Shown here piece after piece: positions 21,935 through 57,704 of a stretch of DNA of 64,000 bases. The DNA is taken from IMG/VR virus record IMGVR_UViG_3300050821_003948, positions 1-64,000 of that record; one strand, 5' to 3'. A program made the position numbers and the translations under genes. How positions within the stretch are numbered: the first letter of the stretch is position 1; each line of letters begins with the position of its first letter. Source of the DNA: a virus. The notes beneath the pieces are model-generated. The model was not told where the DNA came from. It was given only the letters and a program-made list of their open reading frames with translations, and ran no database searches.

Positions 21935-22698
21935 CACTGCCCACCGAGCCGATACGTCAAATCAACCTCAATTCCCAGTTCCCGCGCCTGATTCGCAAGC
22001 TGCGCCACAAGCTCCTGATCGCTCAATCGCGACAATTCGCCATCGTCACGCGTCGCTGCACCAAACCCGTAAAATTTACGCAATTCAGTGTTGGCTTGCA
22101 TTTTCGAGTAGGGCTTGGGAATAACCATCCCAGCCTCGTTAATCGAAAAACTCTCAATGGCCCGCTGCACATCTTCGGGCATTTCATTTAGCGGCTTCGG
22201 CCGCTGAACCATTTTGGTGGCCGGTTCTCCAGTTTCATTGTCGATTATTGCATTGCCCTTGCGGTCGTAGATAGGCATTTCCACCATCGTCCACATATCG
22301 GCAGCATTGGTTTCGTGGGCGAGCCAAAGAAATTCCTCGATTCGCTCGCGTTTGATTCGGAGAATTTCGTCTTCCTGCCGCGACAGAAAAGCTATCCGCT
22401 CCATCACGTCATGGCGCCGTTCCAAACGCGAGGCATTGCCGGCGGCAGCGTGATCGGATTCGGTACTGTAGCCCGCCTGCCGATAGGCGTCGGCTTTGGG
22501 TCTCAGAACAGCGCGAAGGCGGCAAAACCGCTCTTTTTTGTTATCTCGCAGTGGCTTAGAGCCTGGAACATCAAAGGACTGCGCTGGAACGAGCGAAGTT
22601 CCGAGACCAGATTGCTGCTGCGAATCGTTGACCGAATCCGGTGATTCAGTCGGAAGACCCTCTCGTGATCCAGTATGTTGCACTGCACTATCCGTCAC
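21934..22698 (-). CDS. Terminase small subunit (probable)
   Basis: 254 residues, GTG start with AGGTGA upstream. Residues 9-25 (TGSREGLPTESPDSVND) are derived from repeat B9. The DNA-binding part, DAYRQAGYSTESDHAAAGNA, SRLERRHDVMERIAFLSRQE, has the helix arrangement of Terminase_2-type small subunits. A charged middle and a C-terminal helical region (SRLSDQELVAQLANQARE) follow. Position directly upstream of the large subunit supports it. Confidence 0.75.
   Translation of the reverse strand: MTDSAVQHTGSREGLPTESPDSVNDSQQQSGLGTSLVPAQSFDVPGSKPLRDNKKERFCRLRAVLRPKADAYRQAGYSTESDHAAAGNASRLERRHDVMERIAFLSRQEDEILRIKRERIEEFLWLAHETNAADMWTMVEMPIYDRKGNAIIDNETGEPATKMVQRPKPLNEMPEDVQRAIESFSINEAGMVIPKPYSKMQANTELRKFYGFGAATRDDGELSRLSDQELVAQLANQARELGIEVDLTYRLGGQ
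22627..22672 (+). repeat. Family B repeat, copy B9 (in-frame N-terminal)
   Basis: Plus strand GTTGACCGAATCCGGTG ... CTCTCGTGATCC; read on the minus strand as TGSREG ... SPDSVN in the small terminase. Confidence 0.8.
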
Positions 22699-23073: not shown

Positions 23074-23825
23074 TTCCCGCTGTTTATCACAAGATTCGGT
23101 GGAAATGGAAGGGGAGGACCTTGCTTTCGTTCGGCCTTGCGGTTCCCGACACGCTGATCGATGACGGCTATGAGTCGGGCACCTTGGAGATTTTCGGCGC
23201 CGGCAGCATCCATAATCGTTTGCAGGTCCGATTCGTTCCCGTCGAGTGCCGCGAGCCATTTAGCGATTTGGGATCGGGCTGCAAGGCCGCGCACTCCGAC
23301 ACGCTTGATGAGAAATCCCGTACTCTGCTCGTAAAACTCATCTGCTCGCCCACCTGTAGCGGATCGGTTTGTATTAAGAGTCTTAGAATCTAGATTCTTG
23401 TTTTGATTTTGATTGGAAGCTCCAAGCATATGCTCGGTTGATGCTACGGTAATGTTCGACTCCAACGAGTCCAATGGCTTACGCGAAGTCAGAGAGGGGT
23501 CAGCTTTGCCAAACCTGTGCGCGGCAGCTTTCGCGGCCTTGGTTCGGCGTTGTTCTACGAGAAAGATCGTCATGAGAATCGTCGGACATGAGACTTTGCC
23601 GCCGATGGCGTTGAGCTTGCCCATTACCGCAGGCGCGATAATCCCCCATCTGCTGCCCGCGCGGGCATATCTGGCGAGTTTTTTCTGATCGTCCGGCAGG
23701 TAGCCGCCTGCCCGCCATAACGCCCGCTGTAGCCGCACGAATGCCCCGAGTTCCTCGTTCGTCAACTCTTCGGTGGTTGCGCTGGCGTCGTTGACGTGTT
23801 CGGGGCGATAGGGAAGGTGGCTCAT
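23070..23825 (-). CDS. DUF1376 family replication-region protein
   Basis: 251 residues from ATG 23825. HLPYRPEHVNDASATTEELT, NEELGAFVRLQRALWRAGGY, LPDDQKKLARYARAGSRWG match the DUF1376 (YdaU-like) winged-helix domain found in phage replication initiators. C-terminal half is variable with a second helical region (IAKWLAALDGNESDLQTIMD). Probably takes part in phage DNA replication (family context). Confidence 0.75.
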   Translation of the reverse strand: MSHLPYRPEHVNDASATTEELTNEELGAFVRLQRALWRAGGYLPDDQKKLARYARAGSRWGIIAPAVMGKLNAIGGKVSCPTILMTIFLVEQRRTKAAKAAAHRFGKADPSLTSRKPLDSLESNITVASTEHMLGASNQNQNKNLDSKTLNTNRSATGGRADEFYEQSTGFLIKRVGVRGLAARSQIAKWLAALDGNESDLQTIMDAAGAENLQGARLIAVIDQRVGNRKAERKQGPPLPFPPNLVINSGK

Positions 23826-23914
23826 CGCGTTTTCCAGTCGGGGACGGCTGCGTCGCCTTCCGCAATCCATTCTTCCCAAAAGTCTTTGGGGCAGGTGCCC
23901 ACTAGGTCTGTCAT
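23822..23914 (-). CDS. 30-residue micro-protein
   Basis: Overlaps its neighbours by ATGA on both sides. CPKDFWEEWIAEGDAA is a motif seen at the starts or ends of other phage proteins. Real by position and coding pattern; function unknown. Confidence 0.55.
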   Translation of the reverse strand: MTDLVGTCPKDFWEEWIAEGDAAVPDWKTR

Positions 23915-24216
23915 CTGAACCCATTCTTCCTCGGAACCGCCGTCATCGCATCCGGCGTCTGCCACCCCAACGCCGCATTAACGCACGTTGCTGCACTCGA
24001 TGACATGAAGGATTGTGTTGGTTGTGGAGGGAAATAGGCGCCGACGAGTGGGGTATCGTCGATCTTAGGGCCGAGCGTGAAGCTCTCCTGGCCGCGTTCT
24101 CTTGCCGCTAACATGGCGTGGGCGAAAGCGAGATTCATTTCGATGCATTCTCGGCGCTCGAAGAAACCGAGTGTTGAGTCTGTTGATGCTGGGTCGGTCA
24201 ATGGGTAGCGTGTCAT
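23911..24216 (-). CDS. Small phage protein
   Basis: 101 residues: LGFFERRECIEMNLAFAHAM, LAARERGQESFTLGPKID. Preceded by GGGGGAA close to the ATG, which lies just outside the left end of the family A cassette. No recognised family. Confidence 0.6.
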   Translation of the reverse strand: MTRYPLTDPASTDSTLGFFERRECIEMNLAFAHAMLAARERGQESFTLGPKIDDTPLVGAYFPPQPTQSFMSSSAATCVNAALGWQTPDAMTAVPRKNGFR

Positions 24217-24230
24217 GATTCCCCCGATGC

Positions 24231-24297
24231 TGTTTGTTTGTTAGACTGGCTACCTTGGCTGTCGATTTGCTTGTTAGGATTTTACGGCCATAGAGGT
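24231..24297 (+). repeat. Family A repeat A1, left end of the hypermodification cassette
   Basis: Plus strand: TGTTTGTTTGTTAGACTGGC, TACCTTGGC, then GGATTTTACGGCCATAGAGG. Inverted partner of A2 at 25179-25246. It begins at the next gene start region and ends 3 nt before the stop of the cargo gene. Confidence 0.85.
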
Positions 24298-24299
24298 TG

Positions 24300-25154
24300 T
24301 TAGTGTCCTCTTCCGGCGACGTAGAGCGCTCGCGGCTTTCCTTCACCGTTCTTCACGCGGAGATATTTATCGGTCTCACAGAGGATGTTCGGTACGTCGC
24401 TGAAATCCATCCGCACGCCGGTCTCGGCTTCCACTATCTTGTAAATGGCCCGCATTTCGGACAGCGCTTGCCCCTGCGTGAGCGGCCGATCGACGGGGCG
24501 CCCCTGCACGCGGTTCAGACCGCGGATAGTGCCGGGGCCAGCGGCGGCCCAAAGGGCCGCGTCGGGAGCGTCTTTCAGCAAATCGGTGAAACGCATATCG
24601 ACCACGGCCTGGTAGGCCATGAAAGGCCCCCAGCCGTTCGACCGCGTGATCCATTCGTGGGTGCCCTGCAGCGTTGATGCTTTGAAACCGCCGCGCCGTT
24701 TCCACAGGTCGCCGATGACCGTCTCTGCAATATATTTTTGTTTATCGGCTCCCTTCTGTGCGGGCGCGGAAATCATGTAAGCGCCAGTGTATACCTTCTC
24801 CCCCCGTTCCTTGCGCGCGTTCAAAACAGCGGTCATCTTCTCGCAAAAATCAAACCGCGTAGTGTCGGGCCATGCGCAGTGGTCTATTAGTTCGGTAAGC
24901 GTGTCAGGCCAGTTTATCTGCCGCGCGATGCAAAGCATGAGCCAGAGGAAAGGCGAGACAGCGAAAGCGGGACGATTGCGGATGTTGTCCCGAATCCATA
25001 CCGTGACCCGGTCATCCTCACGTCGGACGTTGCAAAAGCGGTAGGTCGCTAGGATAGCGTCGCTGGTCCAAGGCTGCGGCTTGCCTTTCTCCTTGATCAC
25101 GCGGATGCGCTCGCGCTCACGGACCCAATAGAACAGCGGTTCGTAACAAGGCAT
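24300..25154 (-). CDS. Thymidine-hypermodification family protein (5-hmdU kinase helical domain / aGPT-PPlase superfamily)
   Basis: 284 residues. YWVRERERIRVIKEKGKPQP, WTSDAILATYRFCNVRREDD then RVTVWI (residues 9-54) is the signature N-terminus of the aGPT-PPlase/HMUDK-hel superfamily described in phages that hypermodify 5-hydroxymethyluracil. Helical body with GWGPFMAYQAVVDMRFTDLL and a C-terminal CETDKYLRV. No P-loop kinase domain is fused, and no hmU synthase is in this window. It is bounded by inverted family A repeats and is followed upstream by an MT-A70 methyltransferase. Expected role: processing of modified thymidine in phage DNA (inference). Confidence 0.7.
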   Translation of the reverse strand: MPCYEPLFYWVRERERIRVIKEKGKPQPWTSDAILATYRFCNVRREDDRVTVWIRDNIRNRPAFAVSPFLWLMLCIARQINWPDTLTELIDHCAWPDTTRFDFCEKMTAVLNARKERGEKVYTGAYMISAPAQKGADKQKYIAETVIGDLWKRRGGFKASTLQGTHEWITRSNGWGPFMAYQAVVDMRFTDLLKDAPDAALWAAAGPGTIRGLNRVQGRPVDRPLTQGQALSEMRAIYKIVEAETGVRMDFSDVPNILCETDKYLRVKNGEGKPRALYVAGRGH

Positions 25155-25178
25155 CCCAGAAACTCCCCTTTCCCACCC

Positions 25179-25246
25179 TCTATGGCCGTAAGAATCTCAC
25201 AGAACAATCGCACGCCAAGGTAGCCAGTCTAACCAAACAAACAACT
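25179..25246 (-). repeat. Family A repeat A2, right end of the hypermodification cassette
   Basis: Plus strand CTATGGCCGTAAGAATCTCA, CAGAAC, then CCAAGGTAGCCAGTCTAACC and AAACAAAC. It starts right after the stop of the methyltransferase gene and ends 24 nt before the cargo ATG. Confidence 0.85.
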
Positions 25247-26609
25247 AAGACGCTCTCCCATGCAGCGGGTTTGTTAGATCGGTAAACGCAGCATACTCAG
25301 CAAACGTCGGCGCAAGTCCCGGCAAAACTAATTCCGGCAACGAAGAAGGTGAACCCGCGTCCGCCACGGGCACATGAGGGGCTTTCGGTTGATGGTCGGA
25401 CGCGGGTTCGGACACTGACGCTTTGGATTGGGCGGCGTCAGTGCCATACGAATCGGGAACGGTTTTGGAGTCGTGATTCGTTCTTGAGTCGTCAGTGATT
25501 CGTTCTGCGGTATTACGAGACTGATTGCCCCATGTGTAAAAGTTATTGGGCAGAATGTGTTCGTCGTCCTCGCGCGCAAACAATTCGAGCACAGGAAGAT
25601 TGCCCGTCATCGCGTTAATCATGTCACGGTAATACGTAGGCTTTGCCGAATGGTCGGTTGCGCGCTCGCGGTGATTCGATCCCACCTTGACATCGGTATT
25701 CGGCTTGGGAAGGCCGCGGCCTCGTTTAAAGAGGCACAGAACCTCATCCTGATCCCACACGATAAGCCCGAGGCCATGATCTTCGGGGCATTCCTCATCG
25801 GTTTTTGTCCAGATGAAGCACGTCGAATAGGCGTCGAAGCCCCATGCTTGAGCTACGGCGTAGGCGAGTGGGAGTTTGACCTTGCAGCGGCCTAGCGGCG
25901 TTTCGATTTCCGTGGGGTGAAGGGCAAGAAGATGGGCGCGGGGTATCCAGAGGAATAGCCAAGCATCAGGAAGGGTGCGATTCGCCACCGGCATGGCGAG
26001 AATTTCGTCCCACGTTTCGGTCGTGTAGTGATTCTCGTAGGCTCGGTTGCCTATTCCGGCTTTGCGGCGCCATGCGGGGTCCGCATAGATCACGGGGAAT
26101 TTGCGGCCGGTCGGTTGAAGGGCTGTAGCATCGGAGAGTTCTTGAGCAAGTTGCCGCCGGCTTTGCGCGTTCCGCGACGCCAGTTCCCCATTGATTACGT
26201 CCAAGGCGAGTTTCTTGCGCTTTTTGCTTTCCGTTCCGAAGCGTTGGAGCATATCGTCCACACCGTCTTGCCCAAGGTCTGCGATTTTGCGCGAGACTGC
26301 CGACAGGTGCCGATCGATACCGACATCTTCTAGGGTTGAGCAAGATTCACTCCCCGAATCTTGACCTTTGCGCCGGCCCCCATGAGTCGCGATGATGCCG
26401 CTTTCCTCGCCTTGACGGATCATCACACCCAATCGGGCTTCCGCTCGTATTCGCAGCGTGCGAGCGTCTATTTCCAAGTCTATATTTTTCGCCACACGCC
26501 CCACAGCTTCAATAGCCCGCGCCTCGACATGCACCTTCATTACTTCATCCGCGCTCACAGCGTCGGCGAGCGCGCGACAAGCGGCGTCGTATTTGGCGAG
26601 CGCGTTCAT
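25245..26609 (-). CDS. MT-A70 family adenine methyltransferase
   Basis: 454 residues. N-terminal helical region (1-165) resembles the small domain that precedes phage MT-A70 enzymes; FPVIYADPAW (171-180) is the catalytic motif, with DPAW in place of the usual DPPW; ENHYTTETWDEILAMPVA, DAWLFLWIPRAHLL and TDHSAKPTYYRDMI are MT-A70 landmarks. The C-terminal 90 residues are low-complexity. It would methylate adenine in phage DNA for protection or regulation. Confidence 0.85.
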   Translation of the reverse strand: MNALAKYDAACRALADAVSADEVMKVHVEARAIEAVGRVAKNIDLEIDARTLRIRAEARLGVMIRQGEESGIIATHGGRRKGQDSGSESCSTLEDVGIDRHLSAVSRKIADLGQDGVDDMLQRFGTESKKRKKLALDVINGELASRNAQSRRQLAQELSDATALQPTGRKFPVIYADPAWRRKAGIGNRAYENHYTTETWDEILAMPVANRTLPDAWLFLWIPRAHLLALHPTEIETPLGRCKVKLPLAYAVAQAWGFDAYSTCFIWTKTDEECPEDHGLGLIVWDQDEVLCLFKRGRGLPKPNTDVKVGSNHRERATDHSAKPTYYRDMINAMTGNLPVLELFAREDDEHILPNNFYTWGNQSRNTAERITDDSRTNHDSKTVPDSYGTDAAQSKASVSEPASDHQPKAPHVPVADAGSPSSLPELVLPGLAPTFAEYAAFTDLTNPLHGRAS

Positions 26610-27614: not shown

Positions 27615-27680
27615 GTTTGTTTGGGCAGCTTGGCTACCTTGTCTCTCAACTATCCTGAGCGGATTTTACCGCCATAGAGT
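27615..27680 (+). repeat. Family A repeat A3 (solo left-type end)
   Basis: Plus strand GTTTGTTTGGGCAGCTTGGC, TACCTTG, then CGGATTTTACCGCCATAGAG and TC. It forms the last codons (SQDSMAVKSAQDS) of the 144-residue gene. No matching right end is visible near 28.1 kb. Confidence 0.8.
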
Positions 27681-28080
27681 CTTGAGACTTATAACCGTTT
27701 AAATCGGTCGCATAAGTTGTCTCAGCCAACACGCGACGCGGATCGTCTTTCGTCCGCTTGAGCACAAAGGCGTCATATTCATTGTAGATATCCTTCAAAG
27801 AAGACAGAAATGTTTTGCTTACCATGCGAGGATCAAAAACTTCCCAATCTTTTCTCAGATGTTGAATTTTTCCAGCCGCCGCAATCGCATCATCCAAGGA
27901 ATGAAAGTCTGCGGAAAATCCAAATCCGCTTGGAAGGTGTGTGATATTGAAAATGAAATCGCTCACACCGCCATTTGTTAATCGACCGTGGGCCGCGAGT
28001 GCGCCGACGATTACCGCCGGCACTTTTCTCGTTCCGTGGACCGTTCGTATTTCGATCTTTTGTTTTCTTTGCTTCCCCAT
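27646..28080 (-). CDS. Phage protein with repeat-derived C-terminus
   Basis: 144 residues from ATG 28080 (GGTGGAG upstream). KIEIRTVHGTRKVPAVIVGA, LAAHGRLTNGGVSDFIFNIT suggests a compact alpha/beta domain; DIYNEYDAFVLKRT follows. The last 13 residues come from family A repeat A3. Possibly a cassette cargo gene whose right end has decayed. Unknown function. Confidence 0.65.
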   Translation of the reverse strand: MGKQRKQKIEIRTVHGTRKVPAVIVGALAAHGRLTNGGVSDFIFNITHLPSGFGFSADFHSLDDAIAAAGKIQHLRKDWEVFDPRMVSKTFLSSLKDIYNEYDAFVLKRTKDDPRRVLAETTYATDLNGYKSQDSMAVKSAQDS

Positions 28081-28127
28081 ATCTCCACCAATGATTGAAC
28101 GTGAGATCACAGTCGCTCGCGCGGATT

Positions 28128-28835: not shown

Positions 28836-29227
28836 TGAAGTTGTTGTCTCATTCTTGGCCGAGTGGGCGATGGCTCATCGGGGTCACACGACTGTCGGAT
28901 CGGACTCGTTGGAGAAAGGCCAAACGACCTCCCGGAAGTCAGGATTCTCTTTTGCCAGCATAAACATGCCCAGCCCATGCACAGCATCCCCTCCCGCGCC
29001 GGCTCGTGGCAGTAGAATTCCCGACCCTCCATGACGCATTTCAGGGCATCCATCTGAGTCTCGGGGGAGCCGTTGGCCACGTGGTCACCTTGGCGAAAAG
29101 CGCAGGAATTGCAGCGGGGCGGCAATTCCGGGAAGCGAAGCCGAGCTTTCGGCTCCTCGTCGTCGCAGAACTTGGCCATGCGGGCGCCAATCTCACGGCC
29201 TTCGGGGGTGGCGCGGTTGCGAATCAT
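28832..29227 (-). CDS. Cysteine-rich phage protein
   Basis: 131 residues. ARMAKFCDDEEPKARLRFPE, LPPRCNSCAFRQGDHVANGS, GREFYCHEPAREGMLCMGWA: at least six cysteines arranged CxxC...C...C as in phage Zn-binding proteins. The last 20 residues derive from repeat B10. Coupled by ATGA to the small HTH gene upstream. Function unknown. Confidence 0.65.
   Translation of the reverse strand: MIRNRATPEGREIGARMAKFCDDEEPKARLRFPELPPRCNSCAFRQGDHVANGSPETQMDALKCVMEGREFYCHEPAREGMLCMGWACLCWQKRILTSGRSFGLSPTSPIRQSCDPDEPSPTRPRMRQQLQ
28853..28899 (-). repeat. Family B repeat, copy B10 (GAATGAG subtype, diverged)
   Basis: Minus strand GTGTGACCCCGATGAGCC ... AAGAATGAGACAACAA, 17 nt before the regulator ATG at 28835. 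Confidence 0.55.
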
Positions 29228-29427
29228 GCTGCACCTGGAGGTGGGTAAAAGTCCGGCCGCTGCTCATGCCTGGGGATTTGGAGGGCCTTTTCGATCTTTA
29301 GCACCTGAGCCACAGGGATTTGTTCCCATTGGTCCACAGCCTGGGGCGTGATCTTCAAAATCCGAGCTAGGGCGCTAGGGCCGCCTGCCCGTCCGATGGC
29401 CTCTTTGAGTGCCTGCTTTGTCGTCAT
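29224..29427 (-). CDS. Cro/YdaS-like DNA-binding protein
   Basis: 67 residues. ALKEAIGRAGGPSALARILK then ITPQAVDQWEQIPVAQVLKI (6-45) is the YdaS/Cro helix-turn-helix. It is the first leftward gene from the divergent control region and presumably binds the operator half-sites at 29457-29485 (inference). Confidence 0.85.
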   Translation of the reverse strand: MTTKQALKEAIGRAGGPSALARILKITPQAVDQWEQIPVAQVLKIEKALQIPRHEQRPDFYPPPGAA

Positions 29428-30864: not shown

Positions 30865-31647
30865 ATGCTTGACCGCACCGACCACAACAAACTCGCCGAG
30901 CAAACGAACAGCCGGCTTGCCATCGGCGGAAACTCGCCTCCAGGTCCGATTGACAGCGCCAAGGAGGCGATGGCCGAGCTTTCGACATTCACCGAGAATA
31001 ATCCGGTCATCGAAAACTTCGACGGCGCCAAGCAATACGCGGCATGGATCGAACGCACCCGCGTTGCCTTGCAGACGATGGAGGATGAGCGCAAGCCGCA
31101 GGTCGATCCGCTCAACGCCGAACTGGAACGGATCAACAAGCCCTACCGCCTCGTGCGCCAGCCCCTCGAAAAGCTCTACGAACTCGCCAAGGCGCGATTG
31201 TCCAAATACAACAACGCCGTCGAAGCCGCGCGCCTGCGTGAAGCACAGCGGTTGCGCGAGGAAGCCGAACGAGCCGAGCGCGAAGCCCGCGAAGCCGAGG
31301 CGCGCGAGCAAGAGGCCATCCTGAATGCCGAGGAAGGCGAATGCACTGACGTTGGTGGCGCCATTGCCGACGCGGACCAAGCGTTCAAAGCCTTCCAGAA
31401 AACCGACCGCGCCGCCGCCACAGCCGAACGCAACGTCCCAGTTCGCATCGCCTCCGTGATGGGAAACAAAGCCCTGAGCATGAGGACGACCGAGGTTTTT
31501 ACTGTGGGGGATGCCTGTTCAGCCATTACCATCATGGGATGCAGCGACAATCTCAAAAAACAGATTATTAAGGACGCAAAGCGATTCCGCGAAGCTACTG
31601 GCGAACTGCCGGATGGCATCAAATCAACCTACGAACGGAGCTTGTGA
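30865..31647 (+). CDS. Coiled-coil early protein, recombination-associated family
   Basis: 260 residues. NFDGAKQYAAWIERTRVALQ, VDPLNAELERINKPYRLVRQ, then a long Ala/Glu/Arg coiled coil (EAQRLREEAERAEREAREAE) and a C-terminal domain (EVFTVGDACSAITIMGCSDN). Similar proteins precede ssDNA-binding or RecT-type genes in other phages (family context); direct function unknown. The downstream OB-like gene follows after 4 nt. Confidence 0.7.
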   Translation: MLDRTDHNKLAEQTNSRLAIGGNSPPGPIDSAKEAMAELSTFTENNPVIENFDGAKQYAAWIERTRVALQTMEDERKPQVDPLNAELERINKPYRLVRQPLEKLYELAKARLSKYNNAVEAARLREAQRLREEAERAEREAREAEAREQEAILNAEEGECTDVGGAIADADQAFKAFQKTDRAAATAERNVPVRIASVMGNKALSMRTTEVFTVGDACSAITIMGCSDNLKKQIIKDAKRFREATGELPDGIKSTYERSL

Positions 31648-35762: not shown

Positions 35763-35972
35763 ATGGCAACCTATCGAAACGATCGCGAACTTGCTCAATT
35801 GGTTAAGGCCGCAATCGGCCACAATGGCTCACAGAAGCAGTGGGCGGACGACGTGGGAATATCAGCGGCTTACCTTTCGGACTTCCTGCGGGGCAACCGC
35901 GGGGCAGGGCCGGCCATCCTAAAGGCGCTCGGGTTTGAGACCTCACCCTACTACCGGAAAGCCGAATCATGA
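35763..35972 (+). CDS. Small Cro/XRE-type HTH protein
   Basis: 69 residues. DRELAQLVKAAIGHNGSQKQ, WADDVGISAAYLSDFLRGNR is a canonical XRE helix-turn-helix covering residues 7-45. Starts immediately after the previous stop and overlaps the recombinase start by ATGA. Likely excisionase-like or a regulator of the recombinase. Confidence 0.8.
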   Translation: MATYRNDRELAQLVKAAIGHNGSQKQWADDVGISAAYLSDFLRGNRGAGPAILKALGFETSPYYRKAES

Positions 35973-37024
35973 ACCTCCGCACCCTAATGCAAACCTACCG
36001 CAGCGACCCAATATCGGGTTTCTACAAGCTCGAATATTGCACGCGGCGCTATTACAACCGGCTGATGGATCAGCTTGCGCGAACGTGGTGGATCGCTGAG
36101 GATAGTTACGATTGCCATTGCGCAGCCTTTACGGATATCAGCACCATCAACGGTCGTCGCGTCTTTTCATGGCATCGCCAGTGGACAGGCGGCGACCAGA
36201 AAATCTCCATGGGCCACGCGCTGGTCGGGATGCTGCGCACTCTGGTCAACTTCGGCGACTACGCGCTGGACGACAAGGATTGCGAGCGCGTCGCCAACAT
36301 CCTGCACAAGATGCGCTTTGCCAACGGCAAGCCGCGCACCGTCCAAATTACTCGCGAGCAGGCGACCGCGGTTTGCAATCGCGCTCGCACGACTCTGCCG
36401 ATGGTTGGGCTCGCTCAGGCTCTCCAATTTGAGTGTAGCTGGCGACAAAAGGATGTGATCGGAGAGTGGCTGCCAGTGGACGAGCCGGGGCTGTCGGATG
36501 TTTGCTCCATGCACCCCAAAAAAGGGCCGATGAAATGGCTAAAAGGTTTGCGCTGGGAAGAAATCGACGCGGAGTTCATCGTCCACCACGTCACCAGCAA
36601 GCGTAAGAAGCTTAGCGAGCCAGACCTAAAACTTGCACCCCTAGTTATGGCCGAACTGGAATATCAATGGCCGGGCTGCGTTGAACGTCGCGACGATAAG
36701 ATCATTGTTCACCGCGATCTGTTGCCCGCCAAAGGCTCCGTGATAGTCGATGAATACACCGGCTTTCCATACAAGGCGGATGATTTTCGGGAGGAATGGC
36801 GCGTGATCGCCACCGAATGCGATGTGCCTTTGAACGTCCAAAACCGCGACAATCGAGCCGGTGGCATTAGCGAGGCCATTGCGATGGGTGCCAAGGCCGA
36901 ACACGTGCGCGACATGGCAACGCATTCCGACGTTTCACAGACGATGGACTACAGCCGCGCCAGCCGGGAGAACACCCATACTGTACAGCGGATGCGGATG
37001 GAAAAGAGTGGGAGCGCAGCATGA
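35969..37024 (+). CDS. Tyrosine recombinase (phage integrase-like)
   Basis: 351 residues. C-terminal catalytic domain: Arg159 in CSWRQKDVIGEW, Lys near 211 (HVTSKRKK), RDNRAGG (293-299) as the Arg-II box with Arg instead of the usual His at the first position, ATHSD His319, and MDYSR nucleophile Tyr328. The N-terminal half has the SAM-like helices (LVGMLRTLVNFGDYALDDKD). It would integrate and excise the phage. attP was not found. Confidence 0.8.
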   Translation: MNLRTLMQTYRSDPISGFYKLEYCTRRYYNRLMDQLARTWWIAEDSYDCHCAAFTDISTINGRRVFSWHRQWTGGDQKISMGHALVGMLRTLVNFGDYALDDKDCERVANILHKMRFANGKPRTVQITREQATAVCNRARTTLPMVGLAQALQFECSWRQKDVIGEWLPVDEPGLSDVCSMHPKKGPMKWLKGLRWEEIDAEFIVHHVTSKRKKLSEPDLKLAPLVMAELEYQWPGCVERRDDKIIVHRDLLPAKGSVIVDEYTGFPYKADDFREEWRVIATECDVPLNVQNRDNRAGGISEAIAMGAKAEHVRDMATHSDVSQTMDYSRASRENTHTVQRMRMEKSGSAA

Positions 37025-45206: not shown

Positions 45207-45270
45207 TTTGTTTGGTTAGCTTGGCTACCTTGGCTCTCACACCACCGAGAGGGTTTTACGGCCATAGAGT
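45207..45270 (+). repeat. Family A repeat A4, left end of mini-cassette
   Basis: Plus strand TTTTGTTTGGTTAGCTTGGC, TACCTTGGCTCTCA, GGTTTTACGGCCATAGAGTC. Inverted partner of A5. Confidence 0.9.
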
Positions 45271-45277
45271 CTTGCAA

Positions 45278-45394
45278 TCACCCGAGATATATCTTCGCGC
45301 CAATGAGAACCACCCACATTCCAACGCCGACAATTGCGATGGCGCGTATTGTTTGTTCAATTGGTCCACACTCCTTCCACGGCGTCATCTTCAT
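45278..45394 (-). CDS. 38-residue membrane peptide in a 0.26-kb inverted-repeat cassette
   Basis: Begins MKMTPWKECGPIEQ, then membrane helix IRAIAIVGVGMWVVLIG and KIYLG. It is the only gene between inverted family A repeats A4 and A5; the start context TTCGAGAAAATGAA belongs to the right-end sequence shared with A6. Possible holin-like, toxin-like or regulatory membrane peptide; unknown. Confidence 0.6.
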   Translation of the reverse strand: MKMTPWKECGPIEQTIRAIAIVGVGMWVVLIGAKIYLG

Positions 45395-45467
45395 TTTCTC
45401 GAACCCCAATGGCCGTAAGAATCTCACAGAACTTTTGAGAGACTAGGTAGCCAAGCTAACAAACAAA
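45390..45467 (-). repeat. Family A repeat A5, right end of mini-cassette
   Basis: TTCATTTTCTCGAACC, AATGGCCGTAAGAATCTCAC, AGAACTTTTG, then GGTAGCCAAGCTAACAAACA. It begins at the stop of the upstream 105-residue gene (2 nt) and includes the start codon of the peptide. Confidence 0.9.
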
Positions 45468-45468
45468 T

Positions 45469-45786: not shown

Positions 45787-46121
45787 TACGCGGCCTTTTG
45801 CGCGACAGCTTGCGCCGCTGCAATCGTACCCACCACCTTCTCGCTCGGCGTAGCCGCTGCAATGGGCGGCTCAGTCAAAATGGCCTTGACCTGCGGCAAC
45901 GATGCCGCCGCGTCGATACGCGCTTGGCTACCCATACCCATGCCACTGATGGTGGTATTAACAGCAGAGCCGATAAACGCGATGATGCCGCACCACGCAG
46001 CAACTATCGGAATCCAAGCGGGCGGAATGGCGTTCGTAAGAACGAGTGTTCCCTGACTTATACCGATTGCGATGGTGACGATAATGCTGATCGTGAATCG
46101 CCATTTCGGGTCGATGCTCAT
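45786..46121 (-). CDS. Holin-like membrane protein
   Basis: 111 residues. TM1 WRFTISIIVTIAIGISQGTL (7-26), TM2 IPIVAAWCGIIAFIGSAVNT (36-55), then a soluble Ala-rich tail. Coupled by ATGA to the endolysin, the normal holin position. Would form the lethal membrane lesion that lets the endolysin out (family role). Confidence 0.75.
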   Translation of the reverse strand: MSIDPKWRFTISIIVTIAIGISQGTLVLTNAIPPAWIPIVAAWCGIIAFIGSAVNTTISGMGMGSQARIDAAASLPQVKAILTEPPIAAATPSEKVVGTIAAAQAVAQKAA

Positions 46122-46702
46122 GTTATTCCTCCTGCCGGAATCATCTTGACCGCGTCGTTACCAATTTCAACCGAACGTCGAATCCAGTCTTTGCCGAAAT
46201 ACTGAAAGCCGCGCAGCGCCTTGTAGTAAGCCTCACGCTGCGCAGTGAATGCGCTGATAACCGCGTAGGAGTTTGTGACACCCTTCACCGCCGCCTCAGT
46301 CTGTGGCCCCCATACACGATCCGCCGTGATGCCGAGCGCACGTTGCAAGATCAGAGTGGCCGCACCGGGCCCGGCATTCACCGCCTCATCGAAAAACTGC
46401 AAGTCCAACCCTGGCGGCAGTTTCGGGCATTCCGGAAGCCAATAGGAATTGTAATAGATGTCCGCGCCCTCATCGCGGCTGATCTTGCTCACATCTTGCA
46501 GCGGCAGACCTTTGCCTTTGCGATAGGCGTCATACTCGCGCTGGATAATGCCGCACATCGTCTCGCCGCCCGGATCGTGAGCATCGTTTGAGAAGTTACG
46601 GCGATTGCTCCAATCGTTTGGGAGAGGACATTCCTGAATCAAAGTGAAAGGCCAGCACGCGGCGAAGCGCGGATCGGCAAGTGCTGTTGCTGCGTCGGTC
46701 AT
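46118..46702 (-). CDS. Endolysin, GH108-type with peptidoglycan-binding region
   Basis: 194 residues from ATG 46702. LIQECPLPNDWSNRRNFSND and AHDPGGETMCGIIQREYDAY (21-60): candidate catalytic Glu24 and the DPGGET motif of GH108 N-acetylmuramidases. QFFDEAVNAGPGAATLILQR then ALGITADRVWGPQTEAAVKG matches the PG_binding_3 region. Cleaves murein at lysis. No signal peptide, so holin-dependent. Confidence 0.85.
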   Translation of the reverse strand: MTDAATALADPRFAACWPFTLIQECPLPNDWSNRRNFSNDAHDPGGETMCGIIQREYDAYRKGKGLPLQDVSKISRDEGADIYYNSYWLPECPKLPPGLDLQFFDEAVNAGPGAATLILQRALGITADRVWGPQTEAAVKGVTNSYAVISAFTAQREAYYKALRGFQYFGKDWIRRSVEIGNDAVKMIPAGGIT

Positions 46703-47408: not shown

Positions 47409-50124
47409 GATGGTCCTTTGCGGTTTTGTTTGACTCATTCTCTCGCAGCGCAGCCTTCGACTCAGCGCGGTCACCCAATCGCTTCAACAAAACAGCTTCA
47501 TTGTGCGGATAAGGTTTCTTGTACAAGTCCGGCGGCGGACGCTTGGGATGTTCGTGTTCGATATGAGAAAGCAACCCGTCCATCACTTCCTCGTAGTTGT
47601 CCCAATTCAATCCGCGAGCCTTTACCATCGCACGCTCTGCCGCCGTACCGTCTTCGGCGTGCGCTTTCTCGTAGGACTTTCCCGCGCGCATCGCCTTGTG
47701 TTCTTCACGCTCGTGTTCGGCAAGAAACTCCGATGGGTCGATTGACTCGTAGCCTTTTCCATTCGCGCGCTTCACTGCGATTCGCGTGGGCACGCGGCGA
47801 TCAATGTAAACGGTTTTATCGTCGTCGGACGATCCAGCGAGGTAGGGCACGTCGTATTTGCGATTGACGCTTGATTTATCGGCGGATTTGGATTCTACTT
47901 GTCCTTTATGCCCCGATTCACCCCCCACCTTGCCGCCCGTGGCGCGCTGTTGCTGTACGCGACCGCCTGTTTTCTGTGCCTCTACTGGCCCTGGAACGGG
48001 CTGCTGCTGGTTCTGGGCGCCCGCGCCGCCTGTAAGCTGCAAAACCGAGGGAGGCAACGTGGTGGCCTCCCTAGCCCCAGCCATGGCAGCGGCCCGCGAC
48101 CCAGTTTCCCGCAAAGCCTGACCAATCCGAGGATTTGAGGAAGCCGCCGACAACCCACGCGCGATATCCGCCGGGTTGCTGGTCGTAAGTAGTTCCGCCA
48201 CTCGTTTTGCTGTATTACGATCCACATAGCCCAAGGCCGAACGGAACCCAGCCGTAATCGCTTCCGGCGCGATGCGCCGCGCTCCCATGCCCCCTAGGAA
48301 CCCCTCACCAGCACCACGCCAATCGCCCGTGAGATAGCCCCCAGCGGCACCTCCAGCCAAACCGGCCTCGATCATCTGTCGCGCCGTCGTGGAATTGCCA
48401 AGAGCTTTGCGGACCGCGTCGAACACCCGTTCACGGTCCACAAAGGCCCCTAGGCGGTCTGCCGCAGGCTGTCCCAATACCGCCGCTATCCGTTGTCTTT
48501 CCTGCGGTGAATTGTAAATTCGATTTGTCACGTCCTGATTGTCGGAAACACCTTCCGCCTTGCGTGCCATGGCGTCGGCATAGGACTCCTGAAAAATCTC
48601 CCGCTCCGCAGGCTTCATCTGAGCCATCGTGCGTTGCAAATCACGCACGTCACCCTTGAAATTCAACGCCTGCTGTCCAGCTTCGATAGCGTTGTTGCCA
48701 CCAAAATACCGCGCGGCAATACCACGAGCATCGGCAAATTCCGGAACCTGCTTGTCAAGCTCCGCTTTGAGTTGTTGTTCCAAACCACCGTAAAGAGCAG
48801 CATCCGTGTTATTCCCGGCACGGCGCGCTTGTGCTGCCATGCCAGACAGATTACGTGATGCATAATCCCAAAATTGTAAATTCGGATAAGGCAACATTCC
48901 CTTACCCGGCAAGAACTTTAACTGTCCATCGGGTGTCACATTGACGGGCGGATTCATCGCACCGAATCCATCCTTCACCTGAAAATCCTGCCAGCGATTC
49001 ACAGCGCCGCGTATCGCACCCGCGACGCTTGGCGCCGACGACAGCCTTTCTAATTCTGGCGACCAAATAGGGCGGTCGCCAGCTTGATAGGCCGCACCGT
49101 AAGCACCACCGCGTTCAAGATCATATTCCGCTTCAAGTTGAGCTTTGGTCTTAGCAGTATCGGCACCGCCGGAAACCAAGCCACGGATCGTCGAACCAGC
49201 CCGATCATTCTGTTCGGCAAACCGATCGGCAACCGTACTCTGAATTAGGGCGCGACCTTCCGGCGATGTATTCGCCGCGGAGCGCAGTAAAGCACGCGTC
49301 GTTTCGCCGCCCAAGTCCGCAGCCATCACAGGCTGGCCCGCAGCGTGCGCAGCCACATATTCTCCAGGCGTCAAGCCCAAGGTTTGACCGGCCGCCACCT
49401 GCGGAGCGTCGGTCGTCAAGGCACCGTAAACCCGGCGGGCCGCTTCCTTCGCCGGGTCGATCATCCCGCGAACTGCGGAAGCGATAGGACGCCCATAAAG
49501 GTCGTAACCGAACTGGAGTCCCTTTCCAATCGCGCTGCCGCCTAACTCACCCCCGGCACCACCTAAGCCACCCTCGATACCACCAGTCACCGCGCCAATA
49601 GCCGCTCCCGGCAATCCACCCTCTCGCGTACCTTCCGCAGCGCCCGTGACGGCACCATAGCCGGCACCAATTTTAGCACCCTGGACAAGACGCGCCGGCA
49701 ACCCAGCCACCTGCCCTATAGGCAAAGCTGCCATGGTCGCACCAGCGCCGCCTAGTTCACCCGCGCCGTAATAGTAAGGGTGTTGCACCTGCGCCGCGTC
49801 GCGCTGCCTTTTTGCGTCGTCGCGAGCCGAATGATAAATGCCAGTCAAGCCGCCAGACTTGTTGATTTGGTCTTCGTAATCTTGCACCTGATCCGGCGGC
49901 ACATAGCCGCGCGCTTCCGCAGCGCCAACAGCCGCCATAAGGCCGGTTATCTCGTCAGACCATCCTGCACTGGCGCCAGACTTTAAGCCCTCCCAAGCCG
50001 CGCGAGCACCTCCGACCTGCGGAGTAGTAGGAGTTGCATTTGCAGGATCAAAAGGCGGCGGCGACTCTGCACCAACAGGTGTCGCCGCTGTCGGATCAAA
50101 GGGAGGTGGTGCATCGTCTGCCAT
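47401..50124 (-). CDS. Large internal virion/ejection protein with C-terminal metallo-domain
   Basis: 907 residues. N-terminal FDP-repeat region, glycine-zipper-like hydrophobic stretch (VQGAKIGAGYGAVTGAAEGT, GAAIGAVTGGIEGGLGGAGG; about 125-190) suited to membrane insertion during DNA ejection, long helical middle. C-terminal domain 759-850 (VPYLAGSS, TVYIDRRVP, LAEHEREEHKAM, YEKAHAEDGTAAERAMVKAR) resembles a small metal-dependent family I know from other phages. Such large proteins in this position are ejection proteins of short-tailed phages. Confidence 0.7.
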   Translation of the reverse strand: MADDAPPPFDPTAATPVGAESPPPFDPANATPTTPQVGGARAAWEGLKSGASAGWSDEITGLMAAVGAAEARGYVPPDQVQDYEDQINKSGGLTGIYHSARDDAKRQRDAAQVQHPYYYGAGELGGAGATMAALPIGQVAGLPARLVQGAKIGAGYGAVTGAAEGTREGGLPGAAIGAVTGGIEGGLGGAGGELGGSAIGKGLQFGYDLYGRPIASAVRGMIDPAKEAARRVYGALTTDAPQVAAGQTLGLTPGEYVAAHAAGQPVMAADLGGETTRALLRSAANTSPEGRALIQSTVADRFAEQNDRAGSTIRGLVSGGADTAKTKAQLEAEYDLERGGAYGAAYQAGDRPIWSPELERLSSAPSVAGAIRGAVNRWQDFQVKDGFGAMNPPVNVTPDGQLKFLPGKGMLPYPNLQFWDYASRNLSGMAAQARRAGNNTDAALYGGLEQQLKAELDKQVPEFADARGIAARYFGGNNAIEAGQQALNFKGDVRDLQRTMAQMKPAEREIFQESYADAMARKAEGVSDNQDVTNRIYNSPQERQRIAAVLGQPAADRLGAFVDRERVFDAVRKALGNSTTARQMIEAGLAGGAAGGYLTGDWRGAGEGFLGGMGARRIAPEAITAGFRSALGYVDRNTAKRVAELLTTSNPADIARGLSAASSNPRIGQALRETGSRAAAMAGAREATTLPPSVLQLTGGAGAQNQQQPVPGPVEAQKTGGRVQQQRATGGKVGGESGHKGQVESKSADKSSVNRKYDVPYLAGSSDDDKTVYIDRRVPTRIAVKRANGKGYESIDPSEFLAEHEREEHKAMRAGKSYEKAHAEDGTAAERAMVKARGLNWDNYEEVMDGLLSHIEHEHPKRPPPDLYKKPYPHNEAVLLKRLGDRAESKAALRENESNKTAKDHHA
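47428..47475 (-). repeat. Family B repeat, copy B15 (GAATGAG subtype)
   Basis: Minus strand GGGTGACCGCGCTGAGTC ... GAGAGAATGAGTCAAACA; encodes the C-terminal GDRAESKAALRENESNK of the giant protein and precedes the ATG at 47408. Confidence 0.75.
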
Positions 50125-57384: not shown

Positions 57385-57620
57385 CCAGCAAACTCCACAG
57401 TTACGAGTTCACATCTATACCGGAATCAGAACAACTTGGATTCCGCTTCCAACTACGCGACGAACAGCAATCGGTCGAGTTCTTAGTGCCCGCTCATGCG
57501 ATGAAAGCCTTGATCGAGGATTTGACGGAGGCTCAACGTCGGTACAAACGCGCCAGGGACCAACATATTCGGAATCGGAAGAAACAGATTCGCGTCGTTG
57601 TGAAGGACGATGACGTTTAG
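57381..57620 (+). CDS. Small island protein
   Basis: 79 residues: LHSYEFTSIPESEQLGFRFQ, FLVPAHAMKALIEDLTEAQR, NRKKQIRVVVKDDDV. Last gene of the island; ends 5 nt before the leader part of repeat A6. Unknown. Confidence 0.65.
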   Translation: MTSKLHSYEFTSIPESEQLGFRFQLRDEQQSVEFLVPAHAMKALIEDLTEAQRRYKRARDQHIRNRKKQIRVVVKDDDV

Positions 57621-57624
57621 ATTT

Positions 57625-57701
57625 TTTCATTTTCTCGAACCTCTATGGCCGTAAGAATCTCACAGAACTGTTGAGGGCCAAGGTAGCCAAGCTAACCAAA
57701 C
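57625..57701 (-). repeat. Family A repeat A6 (solo right-type end)
   Basis: TTCATTTTCTCGAACC, CTATGGCCGTAAGAATCTCA, CAGAACTGTTGAGGGCC, GGTAGCCAAGCTAACCAAAC. It begins 3 nt after the stop of the tail-hub gene and shares the 16-nt TTCATTTTCTCGAACC part with A5; no left end is seen. Confidence 0.9.
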
Positions 57702-57704
57702 CCT

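Follow-up and report, generated by a model that had tools for sequence, protein, structure and literature searches.

Phages acquire and lose accessory genes while their tightly packed operons stay intact, and how they do so is a long-standing question. It is raised by a locus in which a single gene lies between two inverted repeats at a gene junction. The locus belongs to a 64,000-nt stretch of virus DNA (the whole stretch analysed, hereafter the window), taken from a virus record of 67,252 bp (IMGVR_UViG_3300050821_003948). A sequence-only reading had proposed that two repeats of about 65 bp enclose exactly one gene of the thymidine hypermodification (HMUDK) type, that the unit fits between its neighbours, contains no transposase and has ends known from no described element, and that it resembles a non-autonomous mobile cassette. 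Our analyses place this unit in a family of paired ends found in related phages, which behave as if they carried built-in slots at fixed junctions for changing accessory genes.

The cassette at the methyltransferase junction

The inverted arms (24237-24299 and 25174-25236) are 63 nt long and 79% complementary (81% identity in a 70-nt alignment, E ~1e-14), and a single ORF lies between them (Table 1). Its product matched the Pfam family HMUDK_hel with 156.1 bits over residues 4-271 (curated cut-off 25 bits), and relatives of this cargo occur in named phages with up to 52% identity (e.g., Rhizobium phage RHph_TM26). The unit sits tightly between genes, as the stop of the methyltransferase gene (25245-26609, - strand) lies at the outer edge of the 5' end and the downstream gene starts at 24216, 31 nt past the anchor of the 3' end, and no transposase is inside. 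To this extent the sequence-only reading described the locus correctly. Its emphasis on DNA hypermodification did not survive comparison, since relatives have DUF5131, a MazG-like gene or orphans at this junction (site E); that the cassette holds a DNA-modification gene here is incidental. Hypermodification of the phage DNA is itself doubtful, because the thymidylate synthase family (PF00303), the candidate dUMP hydroxymethylase partner, was not found in the 17 records described below, which are possibly incomplete.

A scan of the window cassette (24100-25400) found neither a sigma-70-like promoter nor an intrinsic terminator, which argues against taking its repeats as an ordinary promoter/terminator pair, and no tRNAs or Rfam families were found in the window. 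The end repeat (~65 bp) occurs six times there: the two copies first noted are real, and four more had been missed, including those of a second complete cassette. The gene that reads into the single 3' end is probably the cargo of a cassette that no longer has its 5' end; its junction holds a full cassette in G003, G009, G011 and G012 and is empty in G001 and G014.

Table 1. Cassette ends, cargos and second-family copies located in the window
Feature	Position	Strand	Remarks
3' end of window cassette	24231..24299	+	inner side TTACGGCCATAGAG faces cargo; after cargo stop codon in transcription sense
Cargo gene of window cassette	24300..25154	-	284 aa; HMUDK_hel / aGPT-PPlase superfamily; PF18723, phrog_2396; stop just before 3' end
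5' end of window cassette	25169..25243	-	GTTTGTTTGGTTAGACTGGCTACCTTGG..TTACGGCCATAGAGG; directly after methyltransferase gene stop
Single 3' end	27615..27688	+	gene 27646-28110 (-) reads into it, C-terminus ..DSMAVKSAQDS
Probable cargo of cassette without its former 5' end	27646..28110	-	based on same junction in relatives
3' end of second complete cassette	45207..45277	+	
Cargo of second cassette	45278..45394	-	38-codon ORF with hydrophobic stretch
5' end of second cassette	45394..45468	-	carries GAGAAAATG
Single 5' end	57630..57703	-	ahead of ORF 57415-57630 (-)
Second-family copy GTCACGAGAG..CCGGATTCGGTCA	22625..22672	-	in frame near 5' end of small terminase gene
Other second-family copies (starts, with strand)	10797+, 11131-, 16571-, 19306-, 29716-, 32126-, 46820-, 51344-, 55267+		

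A family of paired ends in uncultured phages

When viral contigs were scanned with a pattern of the end, 16 IMG/VR contigs besides the virus record contained it; pattern matches in L011 and L012 proved to be a common coding match and were rejected. An HMM search of the 17 records, i.e., the virus record and these contigs, recovered 68 end copies (E < 1e-6), of which 60 form 30 pairs, each around one small gene and 145-1176 bp long. Neighbouring end pairs are convergent in 30 of 30 cases, and among ends less than 1.3 kb apart none is tandem or divergent. After copies that G005 and G010 have in common with G000 were removed as duplicates, 28 cassettes were left, at eight junctions (sites A and C-I) and with 23 unrelated cargo families (gene calls being simple ORFs), together with five independent solo ends; site B has single ends only. 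Most cargos are orphans, and those recognised are HMUDK_hel, DUF5131, a MazG-like pyrophosphohydrolase (NTPase), an HTH protein and a DUF551-like protein.

The records are all metagenomic and without a stated host, many are fragments, and the carriers are a mosaic, partly integrase-bearing group of uncultured phages. An early region of ~23-32 kb is widely common to the 17 records, and their capsid and tail modules differ. The generic tyrosine integrase profile PF00589 had a weak or moderate match, which does not identify IntI, in four of the 17 records, and an integrase-like protein is encoded at 35969-37024. Stretches of 21-27 residues that are 96-100% identical to the integrase of G014 (23385-24407) were also seen at 49746 in G001, 1722 in G007 and 16735 in G008, three records otherwise without integrase, and these are perhaps remains of recombination.

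As the sequence-only reading had supposed, the ends were absent from the named phages and plasmids in the phage and plasmid collections searched, and we found no description of paired ends of this kind in phages in the open literature (subscription papers being outside the scope). Bacterial and archaeal genomes yielded only chance-like matches to the strict pattern: 20 pattern matches were single, with no partner, and among the matches listed those in bacterial genomes scored 7.5-20 bits by HMM, versus ~36-76 bits for true ends.

Anatomy of the ends

Each end contains two conserved blocks ~20 bp apart, the outer being GTTTGTTTGGTTAG(AC/CT)TGGCTACCTTGG (written also TTAG(AC/CT)TGGCTACCTTGG) and the inner TTACGGCCATAGAGG, with a poorly conserved spacer between them. 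In 21 of 28 cassettes the AC/CT dinucleotide of the outer block is discordant from one end to the other, more often than expected by chance (p 0.01), although this may partly reflect shared descent. In most cassettes the inner block of the 5' end is followed by GRTNGAGAAAATG or a similar sequence, which comprises a ribosome-binding site and start, and the 5' ends of 20 of the 28 non-duplicate cassettes have GAGAAA just ahead of the cargo start. The stop codon of the upstream gene usually lies immediately ahead of the 5' end or within it (GGTTAG or CCTAG). About half of the cargos run into the 3' end and obtain from it a C-terminal tail (..SMAVK..) and a stop codon, and this tail is read in the same frame in ~10 of 11 independent cargo families, the solo cargo of the window included (P ~4e-4 if the three frames are taken as equal). 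Past the stop, the 3' end forms an A-rich leader ahead of the next gene. The cassette of G006 is empty (145 bp), and there the start codon in the 5' end is continued directly by the 3'-end tail, giving an 11-codon ORF (MQASMAVQTPR*).

Probable exchange of cargo between conserved ends

At site E, G000 and G009 are closely similar in the upstream flank (96% identity), the 5' end (95%), the 3' end (86%) and the downstream flank (92%), and the genes between, HMUDK in G000 and DUF5131 in G009, are unrelated. Site C gives the same picture for G007 and G015, with unrelated cargo between an upstream flank of 91%, a 5' end of 92%, a 3' end of 77% and a downstream flank of 87% identity. When G002 is compared with G014, similarity stops exactly at the inner edges of both ends, and the DUF5131 cargo of G002 has an 84% nucleotide-identical copy elsewhere in G014, near the integrase gene, which has no ends around it and a C-terminus of its own, the match finishing where the 3' end begins. 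The sequence-only reading had counted a gene found without its repeats as evidence against a cassette; this one cargo is such a gene, but the break exactly at the inner ends points to cargo capture or loss and is thus not evidence against the cassette. Homologous cargo was, in addition, found at two junctions.

The comparison of junctions among relatives that had been proposed earlier did reveal occupied and empty forms of the same junction, with empty or nearly empty junctions at site A in G001 and G014, site B in G002 and site C in G014. Ends at one junction resemble each other more than they resemble ends at other junctions, which holds for 5' and for 3' ends and for blocks as well as spacers (permutation p <0.002 to 0.012, with cargo orientation assigned by hand from ORF lists). 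This correlation is partly due to common (vertical) descent. The 5' and 3' ends of a given cassette show no greater similarity than 5' and 3' ends taken from different cassettes. Together these observations suggest that ends tend to go with their junction and that the cargo is the part that changes.

We consider it probable that the window feature is one of a family of inverted-repeat-bounded slots, in which the ends are resident at the site and the cargo is exchanged, probably through phage homologous recombination. Each slot consists of two ends of ~65-70 bp facing each other between two co-directional genes, the 5' end often providing a stop codon for the upstream gene and a ribosome-binding site and start for the cargo, and the 3' end providing many cargos with a short C-terminal tail and stop, followed by the A-rich leader. 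We infer that cargo would move in and out via homologous recombination or annealing between the ends of co-infecting or resident phages, that the inverted rather than direct orientation of the ends would avoid deletion of the cargo, and that the ends would mostly remain at the site as adaptors with translation signals. A search for RecT (PF03837) gave no match in the 17 records, and a protein with an exonuclease match at 30865-31647 is the only hint of a phage recombination system. As the slot, its ends, empty and refilled forms and a non-cassette copy of a cargo are all visible, gene capture becomes testable here, and, because the ends show where an accessory gene is bounded, they offer a simple means of collecting new orphan genes and possible counter-defence genes from this phage group.

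Alternative explanations and a second end family

The main rival to homologous exchange is a dedicated recombinase: the units may be non-autonomous transposon-like cassettes (MIC- or MITE-like), their ends being terminal inverted repeats on which a transposase or site-specific recombinase acts in trans, provided by the host, a prophage or a co-infecting phage. Several features are consistent with such elements: the inverted ends are long and have two conserved blocks around a free spacer, the units contain no transposase, G006 has the empty 145-bp mini-form, sites occur both occupied and empty, and homologous cargo is found at two junctions. However, the target duplication that the sequence-only reading had envisaged at the borders was not seen (one pair with a common flanking 6-mer versus 0.98 expected), the ends track the junction rather than the cargo, searches of bacterial genomes, plasmids and named phages revealed neither the ends nor an element from which they could derive, and no transposase or recombinase was recognised among the cargos examined. 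We regard this explanation as possible but doubtful. What remains of the mobile cassette first suggested is a transposase-free unit that is bounded by inverted repeats and is present or absent at the same junction; simple transposon-like mobility is not supported, as no target duplication was seen and the ends follow the junction.

A second family of ends bears on the next alternative. This is another two-part repeat, GTCACGAGAG..CCGGACTCGGTCA, unrelated to the first. Most of the 17 records contain it, mainly in single, mostly sense-oriented copies at gene starts, and also in frame inside some genes (the small terminase and a 1039-aa protein); ten copies lie within 10797-55315 of the window. 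The relatives L109 and L110 (large terminase 83-84% identical) have the second family, and first-family ends are absent from their available stretches. Copies of the second family are less often paired than single, and 16 of 25 close neighbours, some overlapping loci included, are convergent. Site C of G002 (28909-29296) holds a cassette with second-family ends, whose 49-bp inverted copies are 98% identical, and its cargo is 39% identical to the site C cargo of G011 (46118-46692), which lies between first-family ends. Second-family ends are found at site E of G012 as well, and a second-family copy takes the place of first-family ends at site D in G002 and G014.

The ends could serve in regulation or translation alone, in the manner of SAS/ESAS or stoperators, with a phage factor that binds or reads them to control accessory genes, the pair arising from the need for a start and an end signal and the change of cargo being ordinary mosaicism of flanks. 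The ribosome-binding site and start on the 5' end, the existence of solo ends and the SAS-like habit of the second family, mostly single and sense-oriented at gene starts, are in favour of this possibility. Yet it does not account for a 3' signal that reverse-complements the 5' signal, for the convergence of all first-family pairs or for breakpoints lying exactly at the inner ends, and the window cassette is without a sigma-70 promoter/intrinsic terminator pattern; we therefore think it unlikely. That the two ends pair in the transcript, as a conserved stem insulating or processing the cargo message, is very improbable, since the fold of the 262-nt cassette transcript (-100 kcal/mol, z -5.5) is one that any inverted repeat would give, and conserved RNA structure is not supported: neither end shows covariation, and a cassette's two ends show no compensatory agreement with each other, AC/CT mismatches being instead in excess.

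Exchange of cargo by homologous recombination between site-resident ends thus remains our preferred explanation. The existence of two end families nevertheless suggests a trans-acting factor that reads the ends, whereas plain homology needs none. A tentative and rather unlikely extension is that a phage-encoded factor recognises the paired ends and loads or exchanges ORFs, keeping them in frame with the start codon that the 5' end provides and with the SMAVK tail that the 3' end adds, and that lineage-specific end families have matching factors. Such a dedicated gene-loading platform, if true, would amount to a natural cassette system with no relation to either integrons or transposons.

Comparison with known systems

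Several known systems share parts of this arrangement. Integron gene cassettes each have one attC and a single promoterless gene and rely on the IntI recombinase; the phage units likewise hold one promoterless, exchangeable gene, but have two inverted ends. The morons of lambdoid phages are single accessory genes, with their own promoter and terminator, between two conserved genes of a phage operon, and they resemble the phage cassettes in placing an accessory gene in an operon junction but lack a common pair of inverted end sequences. Rickettsia palindromic elements are short repeats that tolerate in-frame insertion in genes, as do the in-frame copies of the second end family, but they do not bracket genes as the phage ends do.

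Closer likenesses are found among phage repeats at gene junctions. PeSL cassettes were reportedly described by Arbiol in 2010 and by Comeau in 2014. They are promoter-stem-loop adaptors at gene junctions of T4-like phages that are thought to allow recombinational gene shuffling (PMC4503421). The phage ends are likewise short repeated adaptors at gene junctions, whereas PeSL is a promoter and terminator unit and not an inverted pair around one gene, and its early promoter and stem-loop terminator have no counterpart in the window cassette, the sole one scanned. The SAS/ESAS of cluster K mycobacteriophages are phage-specific two-part repeats at translation starts with a variable spacer and a subcluster-specific consensus (PMC3203893). 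Our ends share with them the position next to translation starts and a lineage-specific consensus, as in the two end families, but ESAS are placed upstream only and every phage cassette pair has an inverted copy after the gene; the description used here mentions neither an inverted partner nor cargo exchange (PMC3203893).

In mobile insertion cassettes (MICs; MIC231 of Bacillus cereus, mic-qnrD), a passenger lies between inverted repeats without a transposase gene, the ends are part of a known IS or are accompanied by a target duplication, and target duplication serves as a criterion (PMC3913671). The 30 convergent pairs with one gene each, a varying passenger and no transposase inside or nearby match this description, but the phage cassettes show no target duplication, and their ends follow the site, carry start, stop and tail coding, and have no parent element that we could find. 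Overall, the phage cassette works most like a MIC and a phage shuffling adaptor combined.
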